Origin: a virus
Virus record (IMG/VR): IMGVR_UViG_3300042326_001109
Span: 1-20,185 of that record
Direction: 5' to 3' (one strand)
Length of the DNA stretch: 20,185 nucleotides
The position numbers were made by a program, and so were the translations under genes. The notes under the pieces are model-generated. The model saw nothing but the letters and a program-made list of their open reading frames with translations, was not told the origin of the DNA and made no database searches. Positions 4,170 to 15,195 of the stretch are shown here, piece after piece (positions within the stretch are counted from its first letter, which is position 1; each line of letters begins with the position of its first letter).

Positions 4170-5540
4170 TTATACGACTCTGGTGCTGTATAATATCATT
4201 CTTTGAAATGTTTCTTCCATATTCCTTACTGAAGGAATCTCGGTAACACTTTGAGATGGTTGATTTTGTGCATTGATATTTGTTGTATTGATTGTTTCAT
4301 TAGCCGAAGTTGAATCCGTTGGTAAATTCATTTCTAAATTCTCATTAGTTGCTGGCATTACGGCTGCTGATGCAGGCGCCGAAGGCATTGGTGTGGCCGT
4401 GTCGGAAGATTCTGCTGAAGCCGTTGGTGTCGCTGTGGGTCCTGAATCAGCCTTTGGTGTCGCTGTGGGTCCTGAATCAGCCTTTGGTGTCGCTGTGGGT
4501 CCTGAATCAGCCTTTGGTGTCGCTGTGGGTCCTGAATCAGCCTTTGGTGTTGCTGATGTTGGTACCGTAGCCGGTTTGCCAAGTAACTTATCTCTTTCAA
4601 TTTTATAATCTTGAACTGCTCGTGCAGCTTCTGGACCTCTCTCTGCATATCCTTTTAATTGTGCATCATTTAATTTTTCACTTTCATTATAGTTCTTTTC
4701 AAAATTGGCAATTTCAGCTTTTGTTTTTTCATATTCAGGAAGTTTTCTAATACGGTCTTCCTCATCTTTAACACCGGCAAGGCCACCAACTGATTCTGCT
4801 TGTTTTAAGGCCAAATTAAAAGGTGAGTTTGGATCTTTATCGTAACTGGATTCATCAGTCAAAACTTTATACATGAAATAAGCAATACCAGCTGCAGCTG
4901 CTCCGCCTAATAAAACTCCACCAGCACCAGTAACAGCGGCTGTTGCTAAACTTCCCAATCCTCTAATTGCTAATTTACCAAGGTCTTTTAATCCAAACAT
5001 ATCCAAGATATTATCAAATATTGAAACATCTGGTTCTTCTTTCTTTGTTGCCGTTTCTTCTTTTGTTGTTTTATATTTTAAAGCCTCAAGCAATTCTTTA
5101 TGCCGTTGTTTAGCTTTTAATTCCCTTTCAAATATTTCTTCTTCTGTTGGTGATAGATTTTTAAGTGAGTGTCGAGAATCTTCTAACAAAAGATAAATCT
5201 CATTCAGCATCTCTAACATACCTTCTTCATTTTCACGAGTGGGTTTTATCTTTGATGCTGTATCCATTTTACCTTGTTTACCGGTAAAATATTTCATATC
5301 CTTTTCACTTCTACCCATCAATCTACCAACAAGAGCAGGAGCTAAATTTGAACCACCAGTCATAAATTTAGCAATGTTCATTGGATCAAACTTTTTCTTT
5401 AAGTTTGTCATTCTTGCTTGGCTGCCTTCTGAAACGGATTTAGAAATGGATTTACCAAAAGATTCTCCACCGACCATTTTCTCAGAGATTCTATCTGATA
5501 ATGTTTTTTTTCTTATTCTATCGGCTTGTTCGTAGTTCAT
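4170..5540 (-). CDS. tape-measure-like / tail hub structural protein 2
   Basis: This 456-residue protein shares its first 80 or so residues with the next gene upstream (ADRIRKK, FDPMNIAK, TGGSNLAPALVGRLMGR), so the two are paralogues in their N-terminal domain. It continues with charged helices (about 103-170) and an Ala/Gly-rich hydrophobic segment at 192-227 that could span a membrane. More charged helix follows at 255-320, then four perfect TPKADSGPTA repeats (331-370), a Ser/Thr/Ala/Pro-rich stretch and a low-complexity tail. Helix plus an internal hydrophobic segment downstream of a tail-chaperone pair is typical of tape measure proteins. T4 gp29 is 590 residues. ATG 5540 follows the upstream stop by two bases. 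The function is inferred from position and architecture, not from a named family. Confidence 0.5.
   Translation of the reverse strand: MNYEQADRIRKKTLSDRISEKMVGGESFGKSISKSVSEGSQARMTNLKKKFDPMNIAKFMTGGSNLAPALVGRLMGRSEKDMKYFTGKQGKMDTASKIKPTRENEEGMLEMLNEIYLLLEDSRHSLKNLSPTEEEIFERELKAKQRHKELLEALKYKTTKEETATKKEEPDVSIFDNILDMFGLKDLGKLAIRGLGSLATAAVTGAGGVLLGGAAAAGIAYFMYKVLTDESSYDKDPNSPFNLALKQAESVGGLAGVKDEEDRIRKLPEYEKTKAEIANFEKNYNESEKLNDAQLKGYAERGPEAARAVQDYKIERDKLLGKPATVPTSATPKADSGPTATPKADSGPTATPKADSGPTATPKADSGPTATPTASAESSDTATPMPSAPASAAVMPATNENLEMNLPTDSTSANETINTTNINAQNQPSQSVTEIPSVRNMEETFQRMILYSTRVV
4426..4545 (-). repeat. four perfect 30-bp tandem repeats (in-frame)
   Basis: A 30-base unit is repeated identically at 4426-4455, 4456-4485, 4486-4515 and 4516-4545, with a degenerate partial copy after it. 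Read on the minus strand each unit encodes ten residues (TPKADSGPTA). There are no spacers, so it is a coding minisatellite and not CRISPR. Confidence 0.95.
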
Positions 5541-5542
5541 TC

Positions 5543-7186
5543 TTAACCTTTACTCTTTTCAAGAATTGCTGGCCTGTCATTCTCTTTTTGTTTTTTATTT
5601 GTTTGTTGTGTATTATTTGTTTGATTAACATTGGTGGTATTTACAATGTTTGCATTCTTATCTGATTCAGTTTGTTTCAAATCTTTATTTTCAACAGAAG
5701 CTGCGTTAATTTGATTACCGGTGTTTAAACCTTGTGATTCAAATTCTAAAGCCAATTCCGCTCGTTTGGTAGCTTTTTCACCTGTAGGATCAGAAAAACC
5801 AACGGCTTTATTTACTAATGATATATTTTCAAGAGATTTTGGATCTCCTTTAGTTAAATATGATTTATAATTTAAAAAGAACCAAGGTATAGATTTTGCA
5901 GCAACTTCAGGACTATTAAGTAAATCTGGATTAGAAATTAAATCCATTTTAAGATAATCACCTAAAGATTTATATGCATTTTTTCCTGTAATTTGTAAAA
6001 AACCTCGGCCTCTATATTTCCACCCGTCACCTGGTTGAGAATTACCATCTGTTTTTGCATATACATGATTTGCTAGTGCTTCTGGATTTTTAACAAATTG
6101 TTGAGCAAATTCTTCACTAGGTATTCTATTTTTACCAAAAGTATTTTGAATTGCTTTTGCGGAAGAATAATTTAAATTTTCACTTTTTGCCACGAAATTA
6201 GATTCTGATTTTACTTGTGCCAATACATTTGCTTGTGCTTTAGAAGAAAGGCCAGCAGCAGCCAATGAAGAAATGACGATTGCTGCAGACCCACCTAGTT
6301 TACCTGCCGCACCACCAACTATTGGAGGTTTAGCAGTTGGTGTTGCTGTTGGTGGTTTTACTTCTGGTTTTGGTGCAGGTGCCGTAGTTGACGGCTTAAC
6401 TTCAGGCTTGGGAGCAGGCGCTGCCGAGGGTGGCTTTACTTCTGGTTTTGGTGCAGGTGCGGCCGTGGGTTTTTCTGCTTCTTTAGCAGGAGGCTTTGGT
6501 GCTTCTTTAACTGGTGGCTTTGGTGCTTCTTTAGTAGGAGGCTTTGGTGCTTCTTTAGCAGGTTCTTTTGGTGCTTCTTTAGCAGGTTTTTTACCTTTGC
6601 CTTTACCTTTACCTGGTGGTGTAGGTTTTGTTGGTGCACCAGGTTTTTCTTTTACTTCTTCTTTCTTTTTTCTTTTCTTTTTATCTTCTTCTTCTTTTTT
6701 CTTTCTGACCGTCAAAGCTGCAATGATGGCTTTATTTCTTTGTGTTTCTCTTTCCTCATTTGCATCATCTTCATTTCTTCTGGCTTTGGCCAATGACTTT
6801 CGAGTTTCTTCAGCCATTTTTAATTCTTCATAAATCATTCCCAATACTTTAGTTGCTTCACCACCTTCTTCTAATGCACCACCAGTTTCAAAATTAACTC
6901 CTCGTGCAGAAGGTCTTTTTCTTGGTTTGGCAAAATGTTCTATTGTGGATTGTTTACGACCCATTAAACGGCCGAGAAGTGCTGGTGCTAGATTAGAACC
7001 GCCAGTAAGTTTCTTGGCAATATTGAGTGGGTCGAACTTTTCTTGAATGCCAGTGAATGTGGCTTTGGTTCTATCGGATATAGCAGAACCAAAAGACGAA
7101 CCAATGCCTTGACCTTCAACCAAATTGTCGGTGATGAGGCCTGCTAGTCCTTTTTTTCGTATGCCTTCAGCTTTGCCGTATTCCAT
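5543..7186 (-). CDS. tape-measure-like tail protein with GH19 lysozyme/chitinase domain
   Basis: This 547-residue protein is modular. Residues 1-80 are the domain shared with the following gene (AEGIRKK, FDPLNIAKKL, TGGSNLAPALLGRLMGR). Residues 115-182 form a highly charged Lys/Glu helix and 183-290 a Lys/Pro/Ala linker with repeats. Residues about 303-485 form a GH19-type domain with NVLAQVKSESNF, SENLNYSSAKAI and YRGRGFLQITGKNAY. By analogy with GH19 enzymes, E328 and E336 are the likely catalytic acids. The last 60 residues are Asn/Gln/Thr-rich. GH19 domains in phages cut peptidoglycan; fused to a virion protein this would open the cell wall at infection. It starts at the first ATG after the gp51-like stop (TAAATG). 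Whether it is the true tape measure or a hub-bound lysozyme cannot be decided here. Confidence 0.65.
   Translation of the reverse strand: MEYGKAEGIRKKGLAGLITDNLVEGQGIGSSFGSAISDRTKATFTGIQEKFDPLNIAKKLTGGSNLAPALLGRLMGRKQSTIEHFAKPRKRPSARGVNFETGGALEEGGEATKVLGMIYEELKMAEETRKSLAKARRNEDDANEERETQRNKAIIAALTVRKKKEEEDKKKRKKKEEVKEKPGAPTKPTPPGKGKGKGKKPAKEAPKEPAKEAPKPPTKEAPKPPVKEAPKPPAKEAEKPTAAPAPKPEVKPPSAAPAPKPEVKPSTTAPAPKPEVKPPTATPTAKPPIVGGAAGKLGGSAAIVISSLAAAGLSSKAQANVLAQVKSESNFVAKSENLNYSSAKAIQNTFGKNRIPSEEFAQQFVKNPEALANHVYAKTDGNSQPGDGWKYRGRGFLQITGKNAYKSLGDYLKMDLISNPDLLNSPEVAAKSIPWFFLNYKSYLTKGDPKSLENISLVNKAVGFSDPTGEKATKRAELALEFESQGLNTGNQINAASVENKDLKQTESDKNANIVNTTNVNQTNNTQQTNKKQKENDRPAILEKSKG
6344..6460 (-). 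repeat. three 39-bp coding repeats (13-residue Ala/Pro/Lys units)
   Basis: Residues 243-281 of the GH19-bearing protein are three near-identical 13-residue units built on APAPKPEVKPP. They form the second half of a long extended linker before the enzyme domain. Confidence 0.85.
6461..6580 (-). repeat. five 24-bp coding repeats (8-residue KEAPKPPx units)
   Basis: Residues 203-242 are five eight-residue units: KEAPKEPA, KEAPKPPT, KEAPKPPV, KEAPKPPA and the degenerate KEAEKPTA. Such Lys/Pro repeats form stiff extended linkers. Confidence 0.85.
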
Positions 7187-7378
7187 TTACTTTTTTCTTT
7201 GTCTTTCCCGTATCTTTTGGTTTTCTTCTTCAATATACGCAATCAACATAGAAACGTAAATGTCCCGCTCCCAAGGCATCATATTTTCAAGCTCTGACAA
7301 ACTATACTTATGGTGATGTATCAACGCAAAGTTTGTCTTATAGTAATTCTTTAAATTGTCATGACGAAATATTAAACG
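7187..7378 (-). CDS. gp51-like reading frame without start codon; probable -1 frameshift extension of gp26
   Basis: In the -1 frame relative to gene 26, translation is open from just before the gene 26 stop to TAA at 7187-7189. It gives 63 residues that start RLIFRHDN and include YSLSELENMMPWERDIYV, then a charged helix IEEENQKIRERQRKK. The first in-frame ATG is residue 33, inside what looks like the conserved core. A TGA at 7390-7388 closes the frame upstream, so ordinary initiation cannot produce it. A slippery T TTT TTC at the overlap would produce a gp26-gp51-like fusion of about 303 residues. The LSELENMMPWER pattern resembles the small second-frame chaperone partner next to tape measure genes and annotated gp51-like hub assembly proteins. 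T4 gp51 itself is longer. Confidence 0.6.
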   Translation of the reverse strand, partial: RLIFRHDNLKNYYKTNFALIHHHKYSLSELENMMPWERDIYVSMLIAYIEEENQKIRERQRKK

Positions 7379-8097
7379 AAAAAACTTTCAAGTCCTTCTA
7401 CTTCAATTTTGTGGTCAAAACCACATTTGTTACATTTAATATCTAATGTTTCTTTTAGTTTTGGTAAATTATTAAAAAAGTTTTCTATCTTACCAAATTG
7501 TTCTTGGTTTAAACCTTCAACAAACTCCATTAATTCTTCTGGTGTTGATTCAGTTGCGTAGTAAAATTGTTCACCATCATAAATGTATTCAATACTCTGT
7601 GCAATCATATGAAAGGTGACATCATTAATATTTTCATATTGCAAAGAATCTTTAACAATACCAAACTCTGGATACTTTAACTTAATTGAAATGTTTGATG
7701 TGAGATTAATCTCAGCCGAAACATCTTCATTCATTTGTACCTGAATTTGAGTTAAATCAACTTCTTTCTCCATAATATTACCACATTCAACATCGTCAAC
7801 CACATTATTACAACGATACCGTGATTCAACTATCTCACCAACTGATTTGGCACGAAGATTGACGAAGTAATATTCAACATCAATGATGGGCAACTTCTCT
7901 ATGTTCACACCTTCAGTAAGTGTGCAGTTATACAAAATGTCTTTAATGTTCTGTTGAATGGTAGACGATTCAGACGATTCAATCGCCATTAATAGATTTC
8001 TTTGTTCTTTAACAAGAAACGGTCTATATTTAATTTTAGTTTTTGAAACCGGCAACTCAATTTCATATGTCGGCACGTCAAGTTTTGGTAAAGCCAT
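7372..8097 (-). CDS. 26: gp26-like baseplate hub assembly protein / tail chaperone
   Basis: The 241-residue product begins MALPKLDVPTYEIELPVSK and follows the T4 gp26 baseplate family pattern (KIKYRPFLVKEQRNLLMA, DVEYYFVNLRAKSVGE). T4 gp26 has 208 residues. Four cysteines in two pairs, C96/C105 and C222/C225 (CNKCG), form a probable zinc ribbon. gp26 acts in assembly of the central baseplate hub. The start has an excellent TAGGAGTTAATTATG site. The last codons read GAA AGT TTT TTC GTT TAA and contain a -1 slippery heptamer. The next frame has no start of its own, so part of the product is probably extended. It is cotranscribed with the tube protein upstream and the tape-measure-like genes downstream. 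Confidence 0.8.
   Translation of the reverse strand: MALPKLDVPTYEIELPVSKTKIKYRPFLVKEQRNLLMAIESSESSTIQQNIKDILYNCTLTEGVNIEKLPIIDVEYYFVNLRAKSVGEIVESRYRCNNVVDDVECGNIMEKEVDLTQIQVQMNEDVSAEINLTSNISIKLKYPEFGIVKDSLQYENINDVTFHMIAQSIEYIYDGEQFYYATESTPEELMEFVEGLNQEQFGKIENFFNNLPKLKETLDIKCNKCGFDHKIEVEGLESFFV
7378..7384 (-). promoter_or_regulatory. candidate -1 frameshift site T TTT TTC with upstream SD-like element
   Basis: On the minus strand the last T of AGT plus codons TTT and TTC form a canonical X XXY YYZ heptamer. Slipping back one base keeps perfect pairing in the P site and near-perfect pairing in the A site. GAAGGA at 7398-7393 ends eight bases upstream, similar to the internal Shine-Dalgarno stimulator used by bacterial dnaX. 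No convincing downstream stem or pseudoknot is visible by eye. Confidence 0.6.
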
Positions 8098-8128: not shown

Positions 8129-8839
8129 TTACACATTCGGTAGTTGCCTTGGTGTCTGCTCGTTTGGTATTGAAGGTATATTTTGAGTCGCTAAGGAATT
8201 TGGAATTAAATTACCCGCTTGACCTAAAGCACCAATTGCATTACCACCTAAACCACCAATTGCATCAGAAACAGCTGCAATACCGGCATCAACCAATTGC
8301 ATACCGTAAGCCTGCAACGAATTGTTCTGCCAGTATGTGTATGCAAAAGTAACTCTTAGTTTGTGATAACCATCAACCGCCCAATCTAAATCTAAAGCTT
8401 CAATAGAAACAGGATAAGCATCATATAAATTACAAGAATATGATATTTGATTCGTAACGTCATACTGATTTACAGTAATAACTGTTGCATAATCACCTTT
8501 GTATCTAAAATTGTAATTGTATTGTGGGTTGATAAAGTTTAACCAAGCGTCAAAAAATACCTTTTGGCTCATATCATCATCAACAATGAATGTTAATTGT
8601 ATATCATTAAATGTTGTAAGATAAGGATATTTCTCAACAGGATTTGAACCAATCTTTTGTTCTGTTGTTGCCAAAGACCTGCCAGGTAAACTAGCACTTT
8701 CACACCGATAGTTCAAACTCTTTGCATTATTGACATAAGGTATCAAAGTTAATGGAACAGGAATGTTGACATCAAACTTATTTGGTCGTGCAATTTCTTT
8801 TCTAAAACTTGCTTTAAATTCGGTAATCGAACCTGCCAT
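8129..8839 (-). CDS. tail tube family protein (gp19/gp54 type)
   Basis: The 236-residue protein has features of the T4 gp19 tube fold: an N-terminal RPNKFDV strand, YRCESASLPGRS, FNDIQLTFIVDDDM followed by FFDAWLNFI, and a C-terminal strand pair LRVTFAYTYW. After about residue 175 there is a Gly/Ala/Asn-rich extension (DAIGGLGGNAIGALGQAG) ending in NEQTPRQLPNV. gp19 forms the inner tail tube, and the related gp54 and gp48 start it on the baseplate. Because gp48 is encoded nearby and the main tube gene normally sits next to the sheath gene, this could be the gp54-like tube initiator. The start has a clear AAGGAAAC site. It lies ten bases after the gp2-like gene. Confidence 0.7.
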   Translation of the reverse strand: MAGSITEFKASFRKEIARPNKFDVNIPVPLTLIPYVNNAKSLNYRCESASLPGRSLATTEQKIGSNPVEKYPYLTTFNDIQLTFIVDDDMSQKVFFDAWLNFINPQYNYNFRYKGDYATVITVNQYDVTNQISYSCNLYDAYPVSIEALDLDWAVDGYHKLRVTFAYTYWQNNSLQAYGMQLVDAGIAAVSDAIGGLGGNAIGALGQAGNLIPNSLATQNIPSIPNEQTPRQLPNV

Positions 8840-9515: not shown

Positions 9516-9917
9516 ATGAGTATTTATAAGCTCACCAAAGAAGAACAAAGAATAGTAGATATTAATCTTTGTAGACATTTCAACATAGAATATACACCAA
9601 GAGAATATGAGGACGTCTGCTTTGAATATAACCACAACGGTTGGGGTGGTGCAACTATGGGTACCACAGGTTACAAATACACAGAACAACAAAGAAAGAA
9701 TATAAGCAATAGTTTAAAAGGTAAATGCAAAGGTTTTTCTGGAAAACATACTCTAGAAACAAAAAAGAAAATATCTTTAAAACAAACTGGTAAGAAAGCT
9801 TCCGAAGAAACAAAACTAAAGATGTCTAAAACACGAAAAGGAAAAGGACATTCAGAAGAAACTAAGCAAAAAATGCGAGAATTGGCTTTAATTAGGGAAG
9901 CACTAAAAAGACGGTAG
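9516..9917 (+). CDS. orphan NUMOD3-repeat DNA-binding protein (homing endonuclease relative)
   Basis: The 133-residue basic protein has about four tandem NUMOD3-type units in residues 50-125, such as YTEQQRKNISNSLKGK, TLETKKKISLKQTGKK, SEETKLKMSKTRKGKG and HSEETKQKM. These modules bind DNA and normally follow a GIY-YIG or HNH nuclease domain in phage homing endonucleases. Here residues 1-48 show neither a GIY-YIG pair nor an HNH motif. The gene is therefore a domain-only derivative or a remnant. It has its own RBS (AAGGA at 9503-9507) and an exact late promoter, and its 3' end overlaps the convergent gp4 gene by 15 bases. It lies between head/tail completion genes, a common insertion site for homing-type genes. 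Confidence 0.75.
   Translation: MSIYKLTKEEQRIVDINLCRHFNIEYTPREYEDVCFEYNHNGWGGATMGTTGYKYTEQQRKNISNSLKGKCKGFSGKHTLETKKKISLKQTGKKASEETKLKMSKTRKGKGHSEETKQKMRELALIREALKRR
9521..9528 (-). promoter_or_regulatory. late promoter TATAAATA (-) for the tail operon
   Basis: The plus strand reads TATTTATA, an exact late octamer on the minus strand. It lies inside codons 2-5 of the NUMOD3 gene and points toward the gp2-like/tube/gp26 operon. The predicted start is about 9515, giving a leader of roughly 80 bases before the TTG at 9433. Confidence 0.6.
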
Positions 9918-11927: not shown

Positions 11928-13310
11928 ATGGCTGAAATTGACCAAAATATTTACACCGATGTAGAAAATCCTGGTGCGTATTATCCGCAAGATTATTCTT
12001 TAGAATCTATTAATTTTTTAACAGGTTCTGGCCAACGATTTGAAATGAAAAAGTTGTTAATAGAATTATCATATTATGAAGATATCTACAGTTTTTCTGT
12101 GTCTGGTTATGTTACGATTGTAGATGCTCAAGGATATATTGAGCTGTTGGATTTGACAGGAAATGAATTTGTTGAAATAATCTTTGCAAAATCTAAAAAT
12201 GCTTCAAATACAAATAAACAAGTATATCGAGTATACAAAATAGGAGATAGAAAACCTGTTGGTAACTTAAACTCTGAATATTATACTTTTTACTTTTGCT
12301 CGGAAGAATTATTATTATCAGAACAAACTAAGATTAGTAAGTCATACAAAGGTAAAGAAATTGATAAGGTTATTACTGATATATTAGTTGACAAATTAAA
12401 AGTAAAAAAAGAGAAAATACGAATTGAGAAAACAAATGGTATAAATGATTTTATTGTGCCTCGTTTCAAACCTTTTGAAGCAATCAGCTGGTTGTCAACA
12501 TATGCAAGGCCTAAAGGTGCAGGTGAAATTGGTGCTGATATGTTATTTTTTGAAACAAAGGACGGGTTTAATTTCCGTTCTTTGCAATCAATGTTTAAAG
12601 ATAACATTTATACCACATACAAATATCAACAACAAGGTATAGAAGATAAAACACAATCTTTTCAAGAAAAAACAATAAGTGTTTTAGACTATGAGTTTGT
12701 TAAAGTTTATGATATGATGAATGATGTTAATTCTGGCACATTGTCAAATCGACTTATATCTCTTGATACCATGTCTAGAACAAGTAAGGTTACAGATTTT
12801 AATTATATCAAATATAAATCTCAGGCAAAAACATTAAATCCTGGAAGCCCAACAAATACATTAAAAAATAGACTAGGATTAACAAATTCTGATTCTTACA
12901 ATGCCTCATTTAAGGTGGCTACTAGTAATGCTTTTCAACAAAATCAGCCATATATAAAGCAAGTTGTTGATGGTGTTGCCAAAAACATTGCAATTGAAAC
13001 ATATGTGCCAAATAGAACTGCTCAAATTTCATTGGCAAACTATACTGTGTTAAAGATTAAAATACCTGGTGATTCAGGAATTACTGTTGGTCGAACAATT
13101 AACTTTAATTTACTAACTTTAAAACCAACCACAGAAACAAAAAACTTGGACGAATTTTACTCTGGTAAATATTTGGTGACTGCTGTAAGGCACATTATAC
13201 AACCAACAGCATTTCAAACTGTCCTTGAAATTGCGAAAGATAGCACACCTAAACCATATACTGGTATCAACAATGATTCTGGTGTTTGGCAAAATACAGT
13301 TAAATTATAA
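11928..13310 (+). CDS. 27: gp27-like central baseplate hub protein
   Basis: The 460-residue protein (T4 gp27: 391) has the N-terminal tube-like segment MKKLLIELSYYEDIYSFSVSGYVTIVDAQGYIELL, LTGNEFVEIIF, and the central FIVPRFKPFEAISWLSTYARP. It ends in a C-terminal beta domain containing VGRTINFNLLT and YLVTAVRHII. These segments are typical of gp27/gpD-type hub proteins, which form the trimer that holds the gp5 spike and the tube. Position directly before the gp5 OB gene, with stop and start overlapping by one base (TAATG), supports the call. The extra length relative to T4 lies in the region about 250-340, which is Ser/Asn-rich. Confidence 0.8.
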   Translation: MAEIDQNIYTDVENPGAYYPQDYSLESINFLTGSGQRFEMKKLLIELSYYEDIYSFSVSGYVTIVDAQGYIELLDLTGNEFVEIIFAKSKNASNTNKQVYRVYKIGDRKPVGNLNSEYYTFYFCSEELLLSEQTKISKSYKGKEIDKVITDILVDKLKVKKEKIRIEKTNGINDFIVPRFKPFEAISWLSTYARPKGAGEIGADMLFFETKDGFNFRSLQSMFKDNIYTTYKYQQQGIEDKTQSFQEKTISVLDYEFVKVYDMMNDVNSGTLSNRLISLDTMSRTSKVTDFNYIKYKSQAKTLNPGSPTNTLKNRLGLTNSDSYNASFKVATSNAFQQNQPYIKQVVDGVAKNIAIETYVPNRTAQISLANYTVLKIKIPGDSGITVGRTINFNLLTLKPTTETKNLDEFYSGKYLVTAVRHIIQPTAFQTVLEIAKDSTPKPYTGINNDSGVWQNTVKL

Positions 13311-13600
13311 TGCAAAATTTTATAGGAAAAGATGGTTTTACTTGGTTCATCGGTGTAGTTGAAAACCGAGTAGATCCTTTGGGTATGGGAAGATGTCAAC
13401 TTAGAATATTTGGTTGGCACACAGACAATATTAGTGAATTACCTACACAAGATTTACCATGGGCTCAACCAATGTATCCAATTAACAATTCAAAATCATT
13501 TTCAGCACCACTATTAGGTGATTGGGTGGTCGGTTTCTTTATGGACGGAGATTCAGGACAGGCACCAATTATGATGGGCGTTTTACCGGGAATAGCATAA
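13310..13600 (+). CDS. 5: gp5 N-terminal OB-fold domain as a separate gene
   Basis: The 96-residue protein matches only the N-terminal OB domain of T4 gp5: GFTWFIGVVENRVDPLGMGRCQLRIFGWHTDN, LPWAQPMYPI, LLGDWVVGFFMDGDSGQAPIMMGVLPG. In T4 this domain is followed in the same chain by a lysozyme and a beta-helix (575 residues in total). Here the chain stops after the OB fold, and the helix is encoded 821 bases further on. The start overlaps the hub stop by one base, and the next ATG follows its stop directly, so the genes are translationally coupled. It should sit on the hub trimer as the base of the spike. Confidence 0.85.
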   Translation: MQNFIGKDGFTWFIGVVENRVDPLGMGRCQLRIFGWHTDNISELPTQDLPWAQPMYPINNSKSFSAPLLGDWVVGFFMDGDSGQAPIMMGVLPGIA

Positions 13601-14421: not shown

Positions 14422-15195
14422 ATGGCAATATTACCACCATCACCTTCAGATAACTCTTGGACAGAACCAGAATCGGCTAGAAATACCGAAACTCCACCAG
14501 TATATCCATATAATAACATACAACAGACGGAATCTGGTCATTCCTTTGAGATGGACGACACTCCAACAAGAGAACGAGTTCGGTTACAGCACCGTATAGG
14601 TACTTTCTTGGAAATGCATCCTGATGGCGATGAGGTGCATAAGGTATATGGTACTGGATACGAGATTTACTTAAAAGGTAAAAATGTTCTAATCAAAGGT
14701 ACCTGTAATATTACCATTGAGGGTGATGCCAATATGGAAGTTAAAGGTGACCACAATGTTCAGGTAGCAGGTGATTACAATCTATTAGTTGGTGGTAAAA
14801 TGAACACCAGAGTTGTAGGTGATATTTCTCAATCTAGTGATGGTGATATGTCAATTACTGCTAATGAGAACTTTGGTGGTGCAATCCGTATGGCTGCGTC
14901 TGACCATGTTTACATAGACTCTGATTTGGTAGTTGCTGGCTCTGCTTCGGCTGATTTAATTACTGCTGAAACACGAATTAATGCTGGTACTGGATTGTAT
15001 GCAGGTTTATTGGGTGTATATTCACAAGGACCAATTACTTCATTAACTTCAGTTGAAGCACCTTTGGGAACATTTGGTATTATGAATGCTGTATTGATGT
15101 CTGATATTATTAACAAAGGCATCTATAACACCCATATACACAATTCACCAAAAGGACCAACCAGTCCGCCTTTGACACCTTTCTTTGGAGTTTAG
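14422..15195 (+). CDS. 5: gp5-like central spike beta-helix protein
   Basis: The 257-residue product starts with a short Pro-rich linker. It then shows the spike entry motif GHSFEMDDTPTRERVRLQHRIGTFLEMHPDGDEV, followed by short repeats of YEIYLKGKNVLIKG, NITIEGDANMEVKGDHNVQVAGDYNLLVGG type. This is the triple-stranded beta-helix of gp5/VgrG spikes. The C-terminal THIHNSPKGPTSPP contains H238-x-H240, similar to the metal-binding HxH at the tip of P2 and phi92 spikes. It should form the membrane-piercing needle together with the separate OB protein. No lysozyme domain is present. Calling it gene 5 refers to the C-terminal part of T4 gp5. Confidence 0.85.
   Translation: MAILPPSPSDNSWTEPESARNTETPPVYPYNNIQQTESGHSFEMDDTPTRERVRLQHRIGTFLEMHPDGDEVHKVYGTGYEIYLKGKNVLIKGTCNITIEGDANMEVKGDHNVQVAGDYNLLVGGKMNTRVVGDISQSSDGDMSITANENFGGAIRMAASDHVYIDSDLVVAGSASADLITAETRINAGTGLYAGLLGVYSQGPITSLTSVEAPLGTFGIMNAVLMSDIINKGIYNTHIHNSPKGPTSPPLTPFFGV

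Follow-up and report, generated by a model that had tools for sequence, protein, structure and literature searches.

Gene 26 of the T4-like phage analyzed here very likely specifies, through a -1 frameshift, both a short gp26 and a long gp26-51 that would together constitute a tail assembly chaperone pair. The window (i.e., the whole stretch of DNA analyzed, a 20,185-base virus record) carries, on its minus strand, genes for a gp4-like head closure protein, a gp2-like end protector, and a tail-tube-like protein as well as gene 26, a 63-codon frame, a 547-aa gene, and a 456-aa gene. On the evidence of the sequence, -1 ribosomal frameshifting at the heptamer of gene 26 is almost certain, and gp26/gp51 are probably tail assembly chaperones. 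In the mechanism we propose, most ribosomes that pass AGT TTT TTC would read GTT TAA and release the 241-residue gp26, and a minority would shift back by one base at T TTT TTC, with two tRNA-Phe re-pairing on TTT TTT; slipped ribosomes would then read CGT TTA ATA ..., bypass the gp26 stop, and yield a 303-residue gp26-gp51 fusion. Short and long forms would work as a chaperone pair after the manner of lambda gpG/gpGT: the gp26 domains may bind the tape-measure or baseplate hub protein, and the additional 51 domain, found on the less abundant long form, may recruit partners from the tube or the hub. The occurrence of the frameshift, its frequency, and the roles of both proteins are what we infer here.

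The product of gene 26 is a T4-like gp26 by curated profile, matching PF12322 with 202.5 bits (cut-off 24.5) over residues 9-240. On direct reading, the gene ends GAA GGA CTT GAA AGT TTT TTC GTT TAA, and the -1 frame begins with CGT (7378) and ends with TAA (7189-7187); the first ATG in this frame is residue 33, and TTG codons are present at residues 19 and 27. This reading reproduced the coordinates and counts that an earlier note on this DNA had given for the heptamer, GAAGGA, the 63-residue frame, the ATG at residue 33, and the TGA (Table 1). The same note had placed the end of the frame one base before the next ATG, which needs correction, as the ATG at 7186 (the start of the 547-aa gene) abuts the TAA with zero bases between them. 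The -1 frame aligned with profile positions 58-118 of 121 in phrog_634 (gp51) and also matched the final columns 234-276 of 282 in phrog_150, the gp26 family, which suggests that some gp26 proteins already carry the 51 domain fused. A Pfam MobI match of the 51 frame (E 0.02) did not reach the cut-off and was taken as chance.

Table 1. Features at and around the gene 26 junction, in window coordinates.
Feature	Position	Strand	Evidence
Tail-tube-like protein upstream of gene 26	8129-8839	minus	phrog_45 E 4e-42, PF23849
Gene 26 (gp26, 241 aa; putative short form, TAC-N like)	7372-8097	minus	PF12322 T4_baseplate E 9e-60; phrog_150 E 7e-64
SD-like GAAGGA, candidate stimulator	7393-7398	minus	8 nt upstream of heptamer
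TGA closing the -1 frame, just upstream of heptamer	7388-7390	minus	direct reading
Slippery heptamer T TTT TTC	7378-7384	minus	region of gp26 codons 238-239 plus last base of preceding codon; direct reading
-1 frame, 63-residue gp51 domain plus TAA	7187-7378	minus	phrog_634 'baseplate hub assembly catalyst' E 9e-29
547-aa gene with endolysin/GH19 domain, at the place of the tape measure in other phages	5543-7186	minus	phrog_181 E 1e-38 (residues 315-447), PF00182
456-aa gene, candidate tape measure or hub protein	4170-5540	minus	N-terminus resembles that of the 547-aa gene (by eye)

Comparison with T4 indicates what the two frames would make when joined. Residues 21-241 of gp26 aligned with residues 13-201 of T4 gp51, ending at the FF position (hhalign, E 1.9e-9), and the profile comparison of the 63-residue frame with T4 gp51 proposed in the earlier note also gave a match, to residues 206-245 (hhalign, E 1e-7). 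Taken together, these alignments indicate that T4 gp51 is a full-length fusion of gp26 plus 51, joined at the place of the slippery site; the gp51 of the T4 record is itself filed in phrog_150. T4 gene 26 ends GAG TTC TTT GAG TTA CTA TAA, which keeps FF in a non-slippery order, and at loci where a T4-type gp26 lies beside a separate fused gp51 no in-frame heptamer was found in that gp26, with FF usually encoded as TTC TTT. A single in-frame fused long form is present in Campylobacter phage CJLB-12 (L092 2290-3030) and Vibrio phage phiKT1024 (L098 2467-3156).

Within the genes of the window, in-frame T TTT TTN occurs once in 6,225 codons, namely at the gene 26 site. Related loci were collected by gp26 similarity rather than by their junction and comprised close relatives (80 loci from a gp26 search of IMG/VR, 79 of which reach beyond the junction) as well as 116 gp26 representatives (<90% identical), a set widened by further gp26 searches and by named phages and reaching down to about 25% gp26 identity. 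The earlier note had suggested conservation of the heptamer and the frame among relatives as a check and their loss in close relatives as a refutation; T TTT TTC and the -1 frame are kept in all 79 close relatives whose sequence continues beyond the junction, and T TTT TT[C/T/G] is in frame in 110/116 representatives, with T4 gp26, four Ackermannviridae, and Vibrio D531 as the six without it. In the 110 slippery representatives, the codon before TTT always ends in T although the encoded residue varies (S in 63, D in 39, N in 7, and A in 1); codon usage alone would give this pattern with a probability of about 10^-44 on the assumption of independent loci, which these loci are not. In the stretch that separates the gp26 stop from the first possible start (i.e., over the first 13 codons past the stop), pN/pS in the -1 frame was 0.06 among 38 different junction sequences from the window's clade; the -1 frame is free of stops in this start-less stretch, and the other two frames contain stops in every one of the 38 sequences. 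The single in-frame heptamer in the window, its retention among the representatives, and this low pN/pS argue that the junction is not due to chance.

Start codons downstream of the gp26 stop follow a different pattern. In 72 of the 110 slippery representatives, the first ATG is at least 47 nt away from the stop, which places it within the conserved core or beyond it. A start codon no more than 26 nt from the stop was found in about a quarter of slippery relatives and in none of the window's clade; the lack of a start for the small frame is, for that quarter, a weaker point of the interpretation in the earlier note. Mapped onto a maximum-likelihood gp26 tree, the presence of a nearby start shows 9 changes, at least 7 of which are required by supported branches, against a heptamer that stays in place; this suggests that the frame can do without a nearby start codon but not without the heptamer.

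With regard to stimulatory signals, SD-like matches of at least 5 nt just upstream of the heptamer were present in a fraction of 0.47 of the representatives, compared to 0.19 in a synonymous-codon null, and a comparable excess was seen at 0/8 other gp26 positions. This enrichment, confined to the site among the positions tested, makes it plausible that GAAGGA functions as a stimulatory SD, as the earlier note had proposed. A search for a conserved downstream pseudoknot or stem as stimulator identified none in the window's clade (z +0.7 for the 77-nt fold of the window); an 8-bp stem that the window can form is disrupted in many of its relatives, and relatives display a mild excess of structure.

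The -1 frameshift put forward in the earlier note is supported by the conserved heptamer and frame, by selection ahead of any start, and by the natural in-frame fusion represented by T4 gp51; retention of the -1 51 frame without a heptamer in Ackermannviridae and D531 counts against it, as does the lack of a conserved downstream stem in the window's clade. Other explanations fit these observations less well. Termination-reinitiation (translational coupling), with a stop at the end of gp26 and a restart nearby in the -1 frame that would give a free small gp51 and no fusion, finds some encouragement in the TAATG or TGATG at the junction of Vibrio D527, Rhizobium RL2RES, Stenotrophomonas YB07, and S-CRM01 and in the ATG located 2-11 nt past the stop in P-SSM2, S-PM2, and others, where annotators call a separate gp51. 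However, neither the window nor its 26-row clade on the gp26 tree has a start near the stop, most slippery representatives have none until well past it, the residues that precede such starts are conserved as protein and match T4 gp51, and the heptamer is located ahead of every such start, so that reinitiation would provide no reason for its retention. We thus regard this explanation as very unlikely indeed, even if reinitiation could supply additional free gp51 in relatives with TAATG or with an ATG within a few codons. Transcriptional slippage, in which RNA polymerase would add or drop a U at the T6 run and place part of the mRNA in the fusion frame, is also very unlikely; while the site is a homopolymer run that extends to T7-T8 in some relatives, most sites consist of six T and a C, which is short for polymerase slippage, the T that precedes TTT TTC retains the in-frame placement that tandem tRNA slippage needs, and SD-like sequence is enriched just upstream. 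A homopolymer run is also where a sequencing error might be expected to break a frame, but an artefact or a decayed gene can be practically dismissed, given that the same break occurs in some 180 sequences, counting separately assembled contigs and finished phage genomes together, and that the -1 frame is under strong purifying selection.

By sequence, the products predicted under -1 frameshifting form a pair of the G/GT type, with a short form, a frameshift-extended long form, and a canonical slippery site near the end of the short form. Both T4 gp26 and T4 gp51 have been classed as hub assembly chaperones, the latter being required for assembly and absent from the particle (PMC3004832). In the lambda model, gpG and gpGT alike attach to the tape measure, while binding of the tube protein is assigned to the T part (PMC5009743). 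The earlier note had proposed gp26/gp51 as the tail assembly chaperones (TACs) of the T4 branch, which appears right, though already published; according to two later papers (PMC10885494, PMC12846349), the TAC genes of T4-like phages were identified by Vladimirov, Gautam & Davidson (2022, Virology 566:9-15), who are cited there for some T4-like TACs being separate short and fused long genes (PMC10885494) and for some having poly-T frameshift signals (PMC12846349).

Structural and profile comparisons with known chaperones gave no significant match. The AlphaFold model of gp26 is confident (pLDDT 88), and its top fold match among 350,542 PDB chains was the HK97 tail assembly chaperone 2ob9, a match that is not significant (E 1.5, probability 0.47, TM 0.37 by target); 3fgx ranked 14th in the same search, also without significance (E 6.5). 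A fold search of the PDB with T4 gp51 found no match, and PDB sequence searches with gp26, gp51, and the 51 frame found nothing credible. The profile comparison with second-frame chaperones that the earlier note had called for was likewise not significant, either with lambda T (hhalign, single sequence, relatives being near-identical; E 0.59) or with P2 E' (hhalign, 53-row profile, 14 columns; E 0.07); the latter alignment, of KYSLSELENMMPWE with HWPPSELYPMSLTE, is suggestive only. As these families are very divergent, such scores do not exclude kinship. It has also to be considered that the frameshift is real and gp26 and gp51 serve as parts of the baseplate hub or as hub-folding factors and do not act on the tape measure; T4 genetics places both in hub assembly, with gp26 in the hub according to some studies (PMC3004832), no fold match to a known chaperone is significant, and the next gene lacks a tape-measure profile match. 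We judge this unlikely in view of a frameshift-made short/long pair just upstream of a long gene, the absence of T4 gp51 from the particle, the HK97 chaperone as the top fold match, albeit not a significant one, and the published TAC gene assignment cited in PMC10885494 and PMC12846349.

The earlier note had also located the junction directly upstream of tape-measure-like genes. A long gene does follow directly, most lineages examined have a long gene behind the 51 frame, and in Vibrio D527, Ochrobactrum OC, and S-CRM01 the gene at this place has weak tape-measure matches (E 1e-6, 4e-8, and 1e-4). In the window, by contrast, profile searches found no tape-measure match for the 547-aa gene, which carries an endolysin/GH19 domain, so 'tape-measure-like' rests on position; the same searches found no family match for the 456-aa gene. 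These tandem genes have in common an N-terminus of ~100 aa with FDPxNIAKxxTGGSNLAPALxGRLMGR, and both contain proline-rich repeats (PKADSGPTAT, KEAPKPP). Elsewhere in the window, a counterpart of T4 gp5 is apparently split (13310-13600 and 14422-15195), with the OB domain and the beta-helix in separate genes and an unmatched 272-aa gene between them; the endolysin/GH19 domain is meanwhile part of the 547-aa gene that follows gp51. A homing-endonuclease remnant (9516-9917; phrog_314 E 7e-8, profile 272-338 of 574) is located on the opposite strand, flanked by the gp2 and gp4 genes.

Sullivan et al. (2010) described cyanophage and vibriophage gp51 as lacking the first ~200 residues ('~20% length') and gp51 as missing only in Aeh1 (PMC3037559). 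The short gp51 would be explained if its first ~200 residues come from gene 26. Aeromonas phage AS-zj (Ceceduovirus; L093 3669-3857) has an unannotated 51 frame after AGT TTT TTC GCA TAA, in which the first ATG comes 86 nt beyond the stop of gp26; the same region of L104 likewise holds an unannotated -1 gp51 frame, the Ceceduovirus junction being AGT TTT TTC GC[A/T] TAA. We take this genus to include Aeh1, and a 51 frame left unannotated as in AS-zj would explain why gp51 seemed to be missing there. The 51 frame of Ackermannviridae, YSIFEISESMPWHLDLLTE, lies behind gp26 in the -1 frame (L089 4235-4408, L096 3789-3965, L100 3795-3956) and is unannotated in L089; the junction GAA ATT TTC ATT TAA contains no canonical heptamer, and gp26 is followed by TAATG in Aglimvirinae and TAATT in Kuttervirus. 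Vibrio phage D531 (L099 3552-3752) has the 51 domain in the -1 frame with TAATG and no heptamer. A second 'gp26' in the Kuttervirus record ('gp26 base plate hub subunit', L089 1758-2369) was considered as a paralogue and rejected, since its counterpart in L096 is annotated as a RuvC-like resolvase; the label is likely a misannotation.

The wide spread of the heptamer suggests that the frameshift came first and the split later. Somewhat better than evenly, the odds favor a history in which the frameshift pair is the older state in the whole T4-related branch, T4 26/51 arose by duplication and split with subsequent loss of the heptamer from gene 26, the 'reduced' cyanophage and vibriophage gp51 and the 'missing' Aeh1 gp51 are annotation artefacts, and Ackermannviridae exchanged the heptamer for another route to the -1 frame. 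A 2016 review regarded T4 as an exception to the near-universal tail-chaperone frameshift (PMC5009743). As T4 relatives from the sea and phages of Aeromonas, Vibrio, Rhizobium, and Stenotrophomonas carry the frameshift signal, T4 would be the odd one, and one frameshift gene versus two paralogues offers a natural comparison for why the ratio of short to long form matters. In hundreds of deposited genomes, gp51 is listed as separate or absent where a joined product should be annotated. The frameshift pair in this environmental T4-like phage appears to be a well-supported new case of an arrangement that has mostly been described for T4-like phages already; how widely the heptamer is conserved, that T4-type gp26 lost it through synonymous change, and why gp51 looks short or missing were not found stated in the accessible literature, and Vladimirov et al. 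(2022) may contain some or all of them.

Among known systems, the nearest named phages are the Kyanoviridae (P-SSM2, S-PM2, S-WAM1), which have the same gene, heptamer, -1 frame, and gene order; in many of them, unlike in the window, an ATG occurs within a few nt downstream of the gp26 stop, and gp51 was annotated as a separate 'reduced' gene (PMC3037559). T4 shares with the window a gp26 of PF12322, a C-terminal gp51 domain corresponding to the -1 frame, and short and long forms with a common gp26 domain, but encodes these two forms in a pair of divergent paralogues that lack a slippery site, whereas the window has one gene and a probable -1 frameshift. Lambda G/GT, located upstream of the tape measure, resembles the window in having a short chaperone and a long form extended by frameshifting in the -1 direction, and differs in its slippery sequence (GGGAAAG, by sight) and in showing no detectable sequence homology to the pair described here. 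P2 E/E+E', which is followed directly by the tape measure gene, does not match significantly by profile, and the T4-type gp26 is much larger than gpE; P2 nevertheless has a slippery heptamer of the same type, T TTT TTG, just before the stop of the short form and a second frame similar in size to that of the window.
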